A stretch of DNA of 39,466 nt from Sphingobacteriia bacterium. GTDB taxonomy: Bacteria; Bacteroidota; Bacteroidia; Bacteroidales; UBA7960. How positions within the stretch are numbered: position 1 is the first letter of the stretch; each line of letters starts with the position of its first letter. The notes beneath the pieces were generated by a model. It ran no database searches and was not told the origin of the DNA. It was given only the letters and a program-made list of their open reading frames with translations. This document shows positions 11,824 to 14,105 of this stretch, one piece after another. Where the stretch lies: positions 1 through 39,466 of the forward strand of contig JAABRR010000038.1 in the NCBI GenBank assembly GCA_011390785.1, in the 5' to 3' direction. Position numbers and translations under genes: made by a program.

Positions 11824-11855
11824 AAAAAAAACCTACAATCATATTGAATGTAAGT
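11824..11855 (-). terminator. Terminator after the GIY-YIG gene and tRNA remnant
   Basis: On the minus strand ACTTACATTC (complement of 11846-11855) pairs with GATTGTAGGT (complement of 11831-11840), with one mismatch and one wobble, and is followed by a T-run (11824-11830). It is a diverged copy of the terminator after the intact tRNA-Val (12203-12240). Confidence 0.75.
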
Positions 11856-11866
11856 CTCTGAAAATC

Positions 11867-11899
11867 AAGTGGGCGATGACGGATTCGAACCGCCGACCC
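11867..11899 (-). repeat. 33-bp direct repeat, copy 2 (tRNA 3' end)
   Basis: These 33 bp, covering the T arm, 3' acceptor strand and first flanking bases of a tRNA-Val gene, are identical to 12247-12279, exactly 380 bp away. Recombination between the two copies would delete the GIY-YIG gene and leave one intact tRNA-Val followed by the terminator at 11824-11855. They look like the ends of an inserted unit. Confidence 0.85.
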
Positions 11900-11943
11900 T
11901 CCCGATTATAGATCGGGATGCTCTGAACCAGCAGAGCTAATCA
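11870..11943 (-). pseudogene. Defective tRNA-Val copy overlapping the GIY-YIG gene end
   Basis: The minus strand repeats the tRNA-Val gene from the inner part of the 5' acceptor strand (GATTAGCTC) to the discriminator, but it cannot make a normal tRNA. The first acceptor bases are replaced, leaving three or four of seven pairs. The invariant A14 is changed to T. The anticodon arm is replaced by a 7-bp stem (TCCCGAT/ATCGGGA) with the loop CTATA. The D stem, T arm and 3' acceptor strand are unchanged. The 5' part is read as codons by the GIY-YIG gene, whose TAA (11906-11908) lies in the altered anticodon arm. Confidence 0.8.
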
Positions 11944-12172
11944 AATTTTCAATGTAAATTCTACTCTTTTTCTTTTTGATTTCCTGCTCCCTTGAAAATG
12001 CTTCCGCACGTGTATTATAATCTTCGTAATACTTTAGTTGCCAATCTTTAGCCTGCCGGGAGAATTTATCTTTCCCGCGGGTGTGATCTTCCAATCGCCT
12101 TTTTAAATTATTGGTGCTCCCAACATAGTATTTGTTTAAATCTACGCTAAATAAGATGTAAGTGTAGTACAT
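11906..12172 (-). CDS. Small GIY-YIG endonuclease with tRNA-encoded tail
   Basis: This 88-residue protein is a single GIY-YIG nuclease domain of the UPF0213/YhbQ-like single-domain type. The GIY strand is YTYIL (3-7) and the YIG strand is YYVGST (15-20). The conserved Arg is in LKRRLEDH (Arg25/26) and the metal-binding Glu is probably Glu62 in REQEIKKKK. The domain is complete by about residue 75. Residues 77-87 (LISSAGSEHPD) are encoded by the D arm and altered anticodon stem of the tRNA-Val copy. I recall similar tails on small GIY-YIG proteins in Bacteroidota databases, but cannot check. It lies between the intact tRNA-Val and the defective copy, inside a 380-bp repeat-bounded unit. It may be a homing-type nuclease acting on tRNA genes; that is inference. 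It is not UvrC, which is far larger. Confidence 0.85.
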   Translation of the reverse strand: MYYTYILFSVDLNKYYVGSTNNLKRRLEDHTRGKDKFSRQAKDWQLKYYEDYNTRAEAFSREQEIKKKKSRIYIENLISSAGSEHPDL

Positions 12173-12202
12173 TTGTTATAAGTTTAGACGTAAATAGCCA
12201 AT

Positions 12203-12240
12203 AAAAAAAGACTTACAATTATACTTATTGTAAGTCTTTT
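12203..12240 (-). terminator. Terminator of tRNA-Val
   Basis: AAAAGACTTACAAT (12206-12219) and ATTGTAAGTCTTTT (12227-12240) form a perfect 14-bp stem with a 7-base loop. On the minus strand a T-run follows (12203-12209). It separates tRNA-Val from the GIY-YIG gene, so the latter probably needs its own start or read-through. Confidence 0.9.
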
Positions 12241-12246
12241 AAAATT

Positions 12247-12279
12247 AAGTGGGCGATGACGGATTCGAACCGCCGACCC
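12247..12279 (-). repeat. 33-bp direct repeat, copy 1 (in intact tRNA-Val)
   Basis: Identical to 11867-11899. The homology continues less strictly through the following terminator, while the anticodon arms on the other side differ completely. The perfect block is thus limited to the T arm and acceptor 3' strand. Confidence 0.85.
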
Positions 12280-12324
12280 CCTGCTTGTAAGGCAGGTGCT
12301 CTGAACCAGCTGAGCTAATCGCCC
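12250..12324 (-). tRNA. tRNA-Val (TAC)
   Basis: A full cloverleaf of 75 nt is seen on the minus strand. Acceptor GGGCGAT pairs with ATCGCCC, the D stem is GCTC/GAGC, and anticodon stem CCTGC/GCAGG holds loop CTTACAA with anticodon TAC. The T arm is GGCGG-TTCGAAT-CCGTC and the discriminator is A. CCA is not encoded. Its 3' end would have been supplied by the inserted unit if the insertion model is right. Confidence 0.96.
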
Positions 12325-12479: not shown

Positions 12480-14105
12480 TTAACGGTTTCTTGATAGACT
12501 TCTTTCTGGTGTGCTTTCGCTACGCACTGGCTGTTTCCTTTCACTATTTTGATTAGATGGAACTACCCGGGTTGGTCGGGATTCTTTCCTTTCATTATTC
12601 CTTACAGCTGGTTCTCTGCGGTTGGGAGTACTGCTACGTTGTGGCCTTTCAACCGCTGGGCTTCTTGATTCATTTCCTGGAGAAACCCTGGCCGGACTAG
12701 TTGTTGTGGATCGGTTGCTTCTTTCTGATGAGGGCCTGTTAATACTTCTTGCCGGTGCAGGCTGTGTATTGGTCCTTCGTTCTGTTGATGGCCGTTCTAC
12801 TGTTCTGGCAGGTGATTGAGGTGTTTCGCGCGCGGGAGTAGCCTCTTGTCTGTTACTTTCCGGTCTTTGGGCGGGACGGTTTATCTGCGGCGAAGTGTTA
12901 CGTTGTGGTACAGTGGGCTGTTGAACTGCCTGATTTCTTTCGGGGCGATTCTCTCTAACAGCTCTTTCACTGCGGTTATTTCTCTGTTCTACAGAACGTT
13001 CCGATCTGTTTGGAGAAGATATCTCGTTTCTACTTTTACTTGGGCTTGCAACTCTTTCAGTTCTTCCCTGTACTTCTCTTTCTCTTTGTGAAACAGATGG
13101 AGAAACTGCCTGGCTGGGATTCCGATTACCCGATGATCTTGCAGAATTCTCCTGCCGCGATGTTCCTGATTGTAAACCTGCACCGGAAGATGATGTGCCA
13201 TAACGACCTTCTCCTCGGTTGCCATTAGAATTACTAACCTGGTTAAGACTGCGACCGGGATGCCTTTCTGCAAAAAGAATTTCTCCGTCCCGGCGTTTTT
13301 CAGGTTTGCTGTATGTTTCCTTATATCTGCCCTGGTTTACATTTACGATAACTGTTGGCGAATAATTTCGTACACGATTACGATAAACAGTAGTATAATG
13401 TGTGCAACGAACATGGTTCCAGGGACGGTAGTGAGCATAATAATGATTATGCCAGTTGTAATGGTAGCCATAATAAAAGTGCCAGTAATGAGGTGTCCAT
13501 GGATTCCACCAAACTGGTCTGTAACCCCAAACCCACGCTGAGCGCCATGGCATGTATGCAGGTCTTCTTATATAAATAATGACTGGCCAGTTCGCAACTT
13601 CATGGTAAGTAGTGGAAACTACTGTAACATTATTACTTTGTCTGGCAACATTTCCCCTGTAGCCCGGATTGGGTCTCTCAGCATAGTTGGGTTCAACAAT
13701 GTAATTATGGCCATACAAGGCTTCATCACCTATAAGTTGTATACGAACAGTTTCATTGGAGAATTTTTCTATTGTAAATACACCAACATCCTGATATTCA
13801 TCTGGCCCCAATGCTACTCGCATTACTATACTATGAATATTCCCATCAACGAAATCAAAAACCATGATATAATCAACATAATTGTCGTTGTTCAGGTCAA
13901 GGTTATTTGTCATGGTATTAGGGTCATTTAGAGATCTCTCAAAAGATTCGAGAGTTTCAGATTCCTGAAAGAGATCCATTACGGCAAAAAGATTCAGATT
14001 GTCTCCTGGCAAACCTAAATAATCATTGGTTCCATTTTGTGCCGCAGCCCAATTGCTTGCTGCAAGCAGCAGGGCTAAAACTGATGTTAAAAATAGCTTT
14101 TTCAT
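12480..14105 (-). CDS. Secreted aromatic- and arginine-rich protein, unknown function
   Basis: The 541-residue protein has a signal peptide ending near AAAQ (residue 23). The globular N-terminal part (about 24-180) contains an EF-hand/dockerin-like loop, DLNNDNYVD (70-78), whose spaced Asp and Asn could bind Ca2+. Residues about 182-250 are extraordinarily rich in Trp, Tyr and His (runs such as WGYRPVWWNPW and HYWHFYYGYHYNWHNHYY). The remaining 290 residues are a low-complexity, disordered, strongly basic tail of Arg, Ser, Asn, Pro and Glu (for example NRSERAVRENRPERN). The protein is probably periplasmic or surface exposed. The His/Trp cluster may bind metal and the tail may bind polyanions such as DNA or LPS; both are guesses. 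It is monocistronic with a strong terminator. Confidence 0.82.
   Translation of the reverse strand: MKKLFLTSVLALLLAASNWAAAQNGTNDYLGLPGDNLNLFAVMDLFQESETLESFERSLNDPNTMTNNLDLNNDNYVDYIMVFDFVDGNIHSIVMRVALGPDEYQDVGVFTIEKFSNETVRIQLIGDEALYGHNYIVEPNYAERPNPGYRGNVARQSNNVTVVSTTYHEVANWPVIIYIRRPAYMPWRSAWVWGYRPVWWNPWTPHYWHFYYGYHYNWHNHYYAHYRPWNHVRCTHYTTVYRNRVRNYSPTVIVNVNQGRYKETYSKPEKRRDGEILFAERHPGRSLNQVSNSNGNRGEGRYGTSSSGAGLQSGTSRQENSARSSGNRNPSQAVSPSVSQREREVQGRTERVASPSKSRNEISSPNRSERSVEQRNNRSERAVRENRPERNQAVQQPTVPQRNTSPQINRPAQRPESNRQEATPARETPQSPARTVERPSTERRTNTQPAPARSINRPSSERSNRSTTTSPARVSPGNESRSPAVERPQRSSTPNRREPAVRNNERKESRPTRVVPSNQNSERKQPVRSESTPERSLSRNR

Follow-up and report, generated by a model that had tools for sequence, protein, structure and literature searches.

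Why a very small nuclease gene should lie between an intact transfer RNA (tRNA) gene and a broken copy of the same tRNA is the question raised by one locus of contig JAABRR010000038.1 (assembly GCA_011390785.1), a stretch of 39,466 nucleotides (nt) from a Sphingobacteriia bacterium of the Bacteroidota, the whole of which is referred to as the window. A reading made from the sequence only had interpreted the locus, a 380-bp unit of GIY-YIG nuclease gene and tRNA-Val pieces, as a homing-like element of one gene with a tRNA gene as its target, and comparison with other loci and genomes supports this interpretation by the linkage of related nucleases with tRNA genes, flanking repeats of tRNA halves, empty alleles, and the replacement of a tRNA half. 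The unit is probably a minimal homing-like mobile element that targets a tRNA gene, in the window that of tRNA-Val, where one unit is present, and homing by the encoded nuclease appears to be the best explanation for the comparative data. In the loci compared, the units lie inside tRNA genes, often at the same point in genes of one isotype, and one working tRNA remains. These comparisons further document an insertion history, half replacement at one site, presence and absence between relatives, inheritance of the target, and selection on the nuclease.

The unit at tRNA-Val and its nuclease

The locus comprises the following features, listed from the working tRNA gene onward (positions of the window):

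12249–12324, minus strand: intact tRNA-Val(tac), the working target gene (ARAGORN; Rfam tRNA, 71.8 bits)
12206–12240, minus strand: terminator 1, directly behind the intact tRNA (14-bp perfect inverted repeat and a T run)
11906–12172, minus strand: GIY-YIG nuclease gene, 88 amino acids (aa), whose final 11 or so codons and stop lie inside the displaced tRNA copy (open reading frame, ORF; PF01541)
11869–11942, minus strand: displaced (defective) tRNA-Val copy, tRNA positions 5–76, with the anticodon arm replaced (alignment; Rfam)
11900–11918, no strand: palindrome TCCCGA-n-TCGGGA in place of the anticodon stem-loop, containing the stop codon of the ORF (sequence)
11824–11857, minus strand: terminator 2, behind the displaced copy and related to terminator 1 (within the 76-nt repeat at 88%)
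11824–12279, minus strand: repeat pair bounding the 380-bp unit (12204–12279 and 11824–11899; repeat search)

Every part that the sequence-only reading had named, i.e., tRNA-Val, terminator, small GIY-YIG gene, defective tRNA-Val copy, and a second, related terminator, was found at the position given for it, and the identical 33-bp block of tRNA 3′ end that it had noticed, repeated 380 bp away, was recovered inside a direct repeat of 76 nt (12204–12279 and 11824–11899; 88% identity, spacing 380). The displaced copy is identical to the intact tRNA-Val in 64 of 74 aligned columns and lacks the first four tRNA bases; it still scores 32 bits as an Rfam tRNA (gathering threshold 29). The ORF enters this copy at about codon 77 and ends with a TAA stop in the replaced anticodon loop, so that the coordinates of ORF and copy agree with the proposed overlap between the last nuclease codons and a tRNA copy with a changed anticodon stem. 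Beyond what that reading had remarked, the changed stem is the palindrome TCCCGATCTATAATCGGGA (11900–11918), a motif common to many other copies and found in displaced copies of several isotypes; the pattern of this palindrome in its tRNA context, AGAGCNTCCCGA..TCGGGANGG, has one match in the 4.8-Mb genome, and a reversed control pattern has none. The arrangement is considered real because an identical repeat of 33 bases is far beyond chance and because the same layout recurs at many other tRNA genes. Both repeat copies are of one type, and the window does not allow half replacement to be demonstrated. The space between the repeats has room for no ORF but that of the nuclease, which leaves the unit without the integrase gene of an integrase-type tRNA element. 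A group I intron in the tRNA gene was ruled out, the adjacent tRNA-Val being uninterrupted according to ARAGORN and Rfam.

The encoded protein matches the Pfam GIY-YIG domain PF01541 with E 1.9e-16 and 60.5 bits (curated cutoff 22.6), which places it in the GIY-YIG superfamily. Tyr, Arg, and Glu are active-site residues of GIY-YIG nucleases, and Y5, Y16, G18, R26, H30, and E62 are invariant across 20 aligned rows. Its profile neighbours are UPF0213 (E 3e-11), SLX1 (E 7e-6), and, more weakly, I-TevI (0.014); the predicted structure (mean pLDDT 86) gives the same order of fold matches, with UPF0213 structure 1zg2 at E 8e-4 as the sole match under E 0.001, followed by SLX1 (0.017) and I-TevI (0.33). 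No extra DNA-binding module is visible in the window protein by Pfam, in the model, or by fold search. SegB, a phage GIY-YIG protein discussed below, is larger. Between the window protein and its relative in genome G007, the nonsynonymous rate (pN) is 0.16 and the synonymous rate (pS) 0.91, and pN is far below pS in all 12 pairs compared (this pair and 11 more), with pS near saturation in several. The protein is under selection and is probably an active nuclease.

Among 12 genomes of the window's genus, full units are present in the window genome (G000) and in G007, and relics of the nuclease in G003 (a 30-aa match, with tRNA-Val in opposite orientation) and G008 (19 aa). No nuclease match was found at the tRNA-Val stretches of G001, G002, G004, G005, G006, G009, and G010, and the stretch taken from G011 contained no tRNA-Val. 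Because the flanks are diverged and inverted, this site is unsuitable for a test of half replacement. In G003 and G006 (L119 2498–2599 and L118), tRNA-Val is inverted relative to CoaX and tRNA-Phe in comparison with the window and G007. In G007 (L122 1900–3600), the working tRNA-Val is preceded by two tandem partial 5′ copies of tRNA-Val that carry the palindrome, and behind the displaced half comes a second, truncated nuclease copy. Furthermore, a search for other nuclease copies in the window's own genome returned one weak match only, a diverged relative (L002, G000:C74:65621–65821) with one internal stop just behind tRNA-Asp(gtc).

Linkage of the nuclease family with tRNA genes

A family profile built from 20 relatives was searched against 392 Bacteroidota genomes at E ≤ 1e-15, with up to 14 candidates scored per genome. 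The family was found in 177 of these genomes (about 45%), some of which have at least 14 matches, and presence of the nuclease differs between congeners. A sample of 90 loci, of which 30 came directly from the search and 60 were taken in score order from the matches listed (tandem copies merged), represents the best-scoring part of the family and not every match. A tRNA gene lies on the same strand directly beside the nuclease gene at 83 of the 90 loci, and on the opposite strand at one, where about 0.004 adjacent tRNA per locus would be expected by chance (assuming 45 tRNA genes per 4 Mb); the expectation that small GIY-YIG genes would be found near tRNA genes in Bacteroidota holds for these best-scoring loci. 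Four of the seven remaining loci end within about 150 bp at the edge of their stretch, and another (L168) has tRNA-Ser 533 bp upstream with a partial nuclease copy in between. Under a slightly different rule, the tRNA is upstream of the nuclease at 71 loci, downstream at 10, and absent at nine. Ten isotypes are targeted (Asp, Gly, Val, Ala, Ser, Asn, Arg, Met, Pro, and Lys), most often Asp (16 loci), Gly (15), Val (15), Ala (11), and Asn (6). By record title, tRNA-linked genes of this type occur in Bacteroidota, Cloacimonadota, Neomarinimicrobiota, groups of Patescibacteria, and Desulfobacterales.

The linkage is not shared by all GIY-YIG genes. Among 44 loci from named genomes (drawn from 45, with L075, a 22-residue match, excluded), an adjacent same-strand tRNA is present in 22 of the 30 that belong to the window-type clade and in none of the 14 with the ILxC motif, a type that we take to be YhbQ/UPF0213; the tRNA link is therefore specific to the window clade. 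Several weaker relatives also have no nearby tRNA (e.g., L013, L016–L018, L024, L026, and L028), and the claim of linkage is for this reason restricted to that clade.

Repeats of tRNA halves accompany the nuclease genes, as had been anticipated. Beyond the nuclease, an exact copy of the 3′ end of the locus's own tRNA (at least 12 nt, median 18) is present at 48 of the 71 upstream-type loci, whereas the 3′ end of tRNAs of another isotype was repeated in 0 of 304 control trials. These repeats are mostly 12–42 nt long, and their length is often constant within an isotype; many Asp loci, for instance, share a length of about 17 nt and several Ala loci one of 31 nt. The 10 downstream-type loci instead repeat the tRNA 5′ end, by 14–30 nt in nine of them and weakly in L204. 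The stop codon falls in or at the displaced copy at 43 of the 71 upstream-type loci under a loose rule by which a palindrome no more than 12 nt from the stop is accepted as well, and tRNA-coded protein tails arise in this way. The suggestion of the sequence-only reading that the displaced tRNA part was recruited as a protein tail agrees, under that rule, with the position of the ORF end; as for function, the tail looks like a junction effect. In the downstream-tRNA class at tRNA-Ser of family f42, the nuclease is upstream, downstream, both, or absent among genomes, and the flanks (65–77% in matches) are too diverged for a comparison of terminator types. In L298 (G589), a genome without the nuclease at this place, a tyrosine-recombinase-like reading frame, judged by eye, seemingly lies beside tRNA-Ser(gct).

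The target is inherited with the protein. A tree of 82 proteins requires 24 changes of tRNA isotype, versus a mean of 55 when isotypes are shuffled, and none of 200 shuffles is as low; preference for a target thus follows the protein tree, as in homing elements. Eight of the 90 loci are left out (six without an assigned tRNA and two too short), and the tRNA-Ser of L158, L168, and L195 was set by hand as downstream type, which for L168 is the wrong direction (its tRNA is upstream) and leaves the isotype labels unaffected. The window Val protein is sister of a tRNA-Ala clade (97/93), which indicates a target switch between Val and Ala. The deep branches are unsure, given few columns (78) and many open forks.

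Tandem arrays in one-contig genomes have unit periods of 315, 316, and 323 bp. Three arrays, L140, L141, and L181, which were read wholly or partly, have one working tRNA at one end, beside broken copies. Fifteen partial nuclease copies, all at loci of the upstream type, are distal to the working tRNA, and two are proximal to it, both in L220; the distal copies fit repeated insertion at the working tRNA, by which older units would be pushed outward. Furthermore, short units without nuclease, of about 70–98 bp and the form [tRNA 1–26][palindrome][few bases][linker], occur upstream of the working tRNA in several genomes, and three of them stand in a row with period 85 in L263. In L155 (1800–1920; G317), a displaced tRNA-Val copy has its T arm interrupted by a long insert that consists of several small hairpins.

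Filled and empty sites at tRNA-Ala

The history of insertion could be followed at a tRNA-Ala gene of another genus, which we take to be Flavobacterium. A 701-bp stretch flanking tRNA-Ala in G392 had matches in 81 of 101 congeneric genomes, a set that includes G392 itself, and the best 30 were examined. Nine of these 30 have the nuclease, five have short 5′ copies only, and 16 have neither and are regarded as empty, among them G079 and G510, the two genomes whose flanks are most similar to that of G392 (88% and 87%, respectively). The empty tRNA alleles that the homing interpretation called for are thus present in relatives, side by side with filled alleles at one orthologous site, as for a homing element. 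In one filled site (L253), the nuclease gene is broken.

Replacement of a tRNA half was examined by comparing the terminators of 13 filled loci with those of 15 scorable empty loci; 10 filled loci had one tRNA 3′ end in the working gene and another in the displaced half, the other three showing a single recognisable tRNA 3′ end and one of the 16 empty loci (L266) none, and these four were left unscored. A foreign unit that carries a tRNA 3′ half predicts an exchange of terminators, which local tandem duplication does not. Seven of the 10 loci are clean in this respect (L139, L140, L156, L254, L256, L257, and L259), in that the working tRNA is followed by a terminator of element type and the displaced half by one of ancestral type. 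In these seven, the terminator of the working tRNA scores 31.5–52 to other filled loci and 11.5–17 to empty loci, and that of the displaced half scores 28–36 to empty loci and 11–15.5 to other elements. The T-arm allele also differs between the working and the displaced half in at least five of the 10 loci (L139, L164, L257, L259, and L263). It follows that units entered tRNA genes and replaced one half of them. The supply of a replacement tRNA 3′ half, which had been claimed for the window itself, is seen at this tRNA-Ala site and not at the window.

A recoded rescue tRNA that could not be cut was considered as a general rule and rejected, because the working tRNA-Ala genes of filled genomes have no consistent anticodon-arm allele (CTACG in L253 and L259; CTTGC in L244 and L254). 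The tRNA-Ala(ggc) alleles of one genus (L245–L273) have the look of mosaics that combine two types of anticodon arm with two of T arm (e.g., L252, L257, and L261), and this appearance is also found in genomes free of the element.

These data suggest how a unit might act. In an autonomous unit of about 300–400 bp, one GIY-YIG gene and often a palindrome would come after a replacement tRNA half, usually the 3′ half with its terminator. The nuclease would cut or nick the tRNA gene near a tRNA arm, and repair from a unit-bearing copy, guided by homology of the tRNA half, would insert the unit. The accompanying tRNA half would keep the host gene functional, and it is proposed that insertion costs the host little for this reason. 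The palindrome that replaces a tRNA arm could stop the displaced half from acting as a tRNA or from being cut again.

Palindromes, competing explanations, and known systems

The palindrome TCCCGA-n-TCGGGA or a near variant is located in the displaced halves in the anticodon arm (Val, Ala, Arg, and Pro), in the T arm (Asp, Gly, and Asn), or elsewhere, sometimes twice, and its canonical form is near the nuclease at 57 of the 90 loci. Within 150 bp of a tRNA or nuclease gene, its density is 1.23 per kb, versus 0.037 elsewhere in the same loci (99 versus 8 hits; 33-fold); four of five control palindromes were never found in these loci and the fifth had six near and two far hits. Genome-wide, ten genomes contain 8 to 92 copies of the palindrome and 0 to 4 of a reversed control. 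Across the 392 genomes, the median count (short loops) is 13 in the 177 genomes with the nuclease and 2 in the 215 without it, a correlation not adjusted for base composition, in which the reversed control reaches 29–40 in three genomes. After two palindromes per nuclease match are subtracted, the medians are 7 and 2 (p 2e-8), and permutation within families gave 27 of 2000 for the association; of seven families tested by unadjusted counts, f29 (p 0.39) and f28 (p 0.25) show no clear effect. In a small sample of 20 hand-picked palindromes from three genomes, two of which were dropped near the end of a stretch, the 18 dispersed palindromes were at the tips of longer inverted repeats, with 0 of 200 flank permutations as high. 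A mechanism shared by the nuclease and the dispersed palindromes is suggested by these associations. Large families of dispersed palindromes are present in G228, G503, G069, G252, and others, with up to 111 per genome with short loops (G069).

Several explanations compete with homing. Local copying of a tRNA gene together with a neighbouring nuclease gene, followed by decay of the spare tRNA, would yield repeats like those of the window, where the copies share 88% identity and a block of 33 identical bases in the 3′ halves, and it would also fit the arrays of near-identical units and the like terminators of L244. Such simple tandem duplication is at odds with the presence of one protein clade at ten isotypes, with the distinction of ancestral-type from element-type terminators in seven of 10 loci and the differing T-arm alleles in at least five, with orthologous sites that are empty in near relatives, and with the same palindrome at many junctions (57/90); it is already disfavoured and appears quite unlikely. 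A cassette moved in trans by a tyrosine integrase is suggested by direct repeats that end at the tRNA 3′ end and, at mostly 12–42 nt, resemble attachment (att) sites. The unit, however, has room for the nuclease gene only (the flanks were not systematically scanned for integrase genes), 10 of the 90 loci have a downstream tRNA with the 5′ end repeated, the palindrome replaces tRNA bases at many junctions, and a single nuclease clade keeps its link with tRNA genes in several phyla, all of which makes an integrase in trans very unlikely.

A third proposal overlaps with homing and alters how the target is found: a structure-specific, SLX1-like nuclease would act on hairpins or cruciforms and spread small TCCCGA palindromes genome-wide, and tRNA genes would be hit as foldable stem-loops. 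UPF0213 and SLX1 lead the profile and fold matches ahead of I-TevI, palindromes are 33 times denser near tRNA and nuclease genes, genome-wide counts are higher with the nuclease (13 versus 2; adjusted, 7 versus 2), and the 18 dispersed palindromes at tips of inverted repeats are in agreement with this proposal. By contrast, the evidence from palindromes is correlational and without clear effect in f29 and f28, a few genomes have many copies of the reversed control as well (up to 40), the canonical palindrome is at 57 of 90 loci and not at all of them, and the target isotype follows the protein tree, which argues for a sequence preference; recognition by structure is thus considered unlikely. 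Finally, the gene could be kept by the host to amplify tRNA units for tRNA dosage or defence. SegB of phages T4 and T6 is a free-standing GIY-YIG homing endonuclease beside tRNA genes of many isotypes, the 5′ end of the tRNA shares microhomology with the end of the nuclease gene (3′ end of segB), and T6 under Septu attack is reported to form tandem units of 718 bp consisting of tRNA-Tyr and segB (PMC13096335). SegB and the present units have in common a GIY-YIG gene at tRNA genes and a tandem unit of tRNA and nuclease, and tandem arrays occur here too; by contrast, SegB belongs to a phage genome in which a tRNA gene is amplified, and the passages of that report considered here describe no displaced or replacement tRNA half and no palindrome for it. 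A role in dosage or defence is highly improbable, since tRNA dosage is not raised in the arrays read, with their single working tRNA, and presence of the nuclease varies between congeners.

Homing by the encoded nuclease also has observations to contend with, and the following weigh against it. The protein amounts to a catalytic domain of some 80 aa with no visible DNA-binding module, which does not account for site specificity. Self-immunity is likewise unaccounted for, since the working tRNA is left intact and should still be open to cutting. Searches for close relatives found no vector for the units in plasmids or IMG/VR, and a tblastn search of the window protein against 50,697 phage records, with the same reach, gave one weak match in an unannotated record. 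Some loci do not conform: ARAGORN detects no tRNA near the nuclease in L148 and L212 (Rfam gives a sub-threshold tRNA about 1 kb away in L148 and nothing in L212), 23 of the 71 upstream-type loci have no exact 3′ suffix of at least 12 nt, and the nuclease of L251 is at tRNA-Ala without a recognisable displaced half. Among the terminators of the tRNA-Ala site, the first one of L164 also resembles that of an empty site and is ambiguous, and those of L244 and L263 do not separate, the two of L244 being alike. Arrays, moreover, can also form by unequal crossing-over.

Among known systems, the nearest besides SegB are the mORF hybrids of fungal mitochondria, reported for atp6, atp9, cox2, and nad3 in Glomus and Allomyces, in which an endonuclease ORF brings a replacement 3′ end and the native 3′ end is displaced downstream, where it is closer to near relatives than the inserted one; one of four Glomus cases (atp9) is of GIY-YIG type (PMC3630166, in part). 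The tRNA units resemble them in the combination of endonuclease ORF, foreign replacement 3′ end, and displaced native end, and in seven of the 10 testable tRNA-Ala copies the element-borne end is likewise upstream and the native end downstream. By contrast, mORF target mitochondrial protein genes, as far as the same source covers them, and the tRNA units target tRNA genes on bacterial chromosomes; the ORF of the tRNA unit at the window has 88 codons, in some copies it is the tRNA 5′ end that is repeated, and the displaced half often bears a palindrome. Homing-type elements that replace gene ends are therefore already known, and the aim at bacterial tRNA genes is what we call new. No description of such elements on bacterial chromosomes was found among titles and abstract beginnings of open-licence papers, a scope that does not include subscription papers and preprints, and an earlier report may exist.

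Other systems share single traits with the units. The UPF0213/YhbQ-type GIY-YIG proteins are small single-domain proteins that include the nearest solved structures by profile and fold (1zg2 and 1ywl), and differ in that ILxC-type relatives lie away from tRNA genes (0/14). Integrative elements at tRNA 3′ ends likewise show a direct repeat of the tRNA 3′ end and a restored tRNA, whereas the tRNA unit has no integrase, exists in 5′ versions, and carries a palindrome at many junctions. REP sequences with RAYT (Y1) transposases are dispersed short palindromes linked to one enzyme family; dispersed short palindromes are also linked statistically to one enzyme family here, although the enzyme is a GIY-YIG nuclease and not a Y1 transposase, and the link to palindromes is correlational.

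If the homing interpretation holds, tRNA genes repeatedly have their halves exchanged by a selfish element of a few hundred bases, whose family occurs in about 45% of the Bacteroidota genomes sampled. The element would then be a very small autonomous mobile element and a source of mosaic evolution for tRNA genes, would account for many odd pseudo-tRNAs and for small GIY-YIG genes with tRNA-coded tails, and would connect an enzyme with a large family of orphan palindromes. A very small protein and short DNA suffice to test each step. A wider proposal can be made tentatively and is on the whole doubtful: the units may be undescribed, self-spreading tRNA parasites of Bacteroidota and other phyla that replace half genes, in which one small, structure-sensitive GIY-YIG nuclease would move three cargoes, i.e., the nuclease unit (renewing a tRNA 3′ or 5′ half), the nuclease-free 5′ units of about 70–98 bp, and, in trans, genome-wide palindromes onto stem-loops. 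Such a system would be the equivalent in nature of a cut-and-rescue gene drive, breaking an essential RNA gene and supplying the repaired half.

Next to the unit in the window, a protein of 541 aa is encoded at 12480–14105 on the minus strand, adjoining tRNA-Val; its C-terminal half is long and rich in arginine, serine, and proline.

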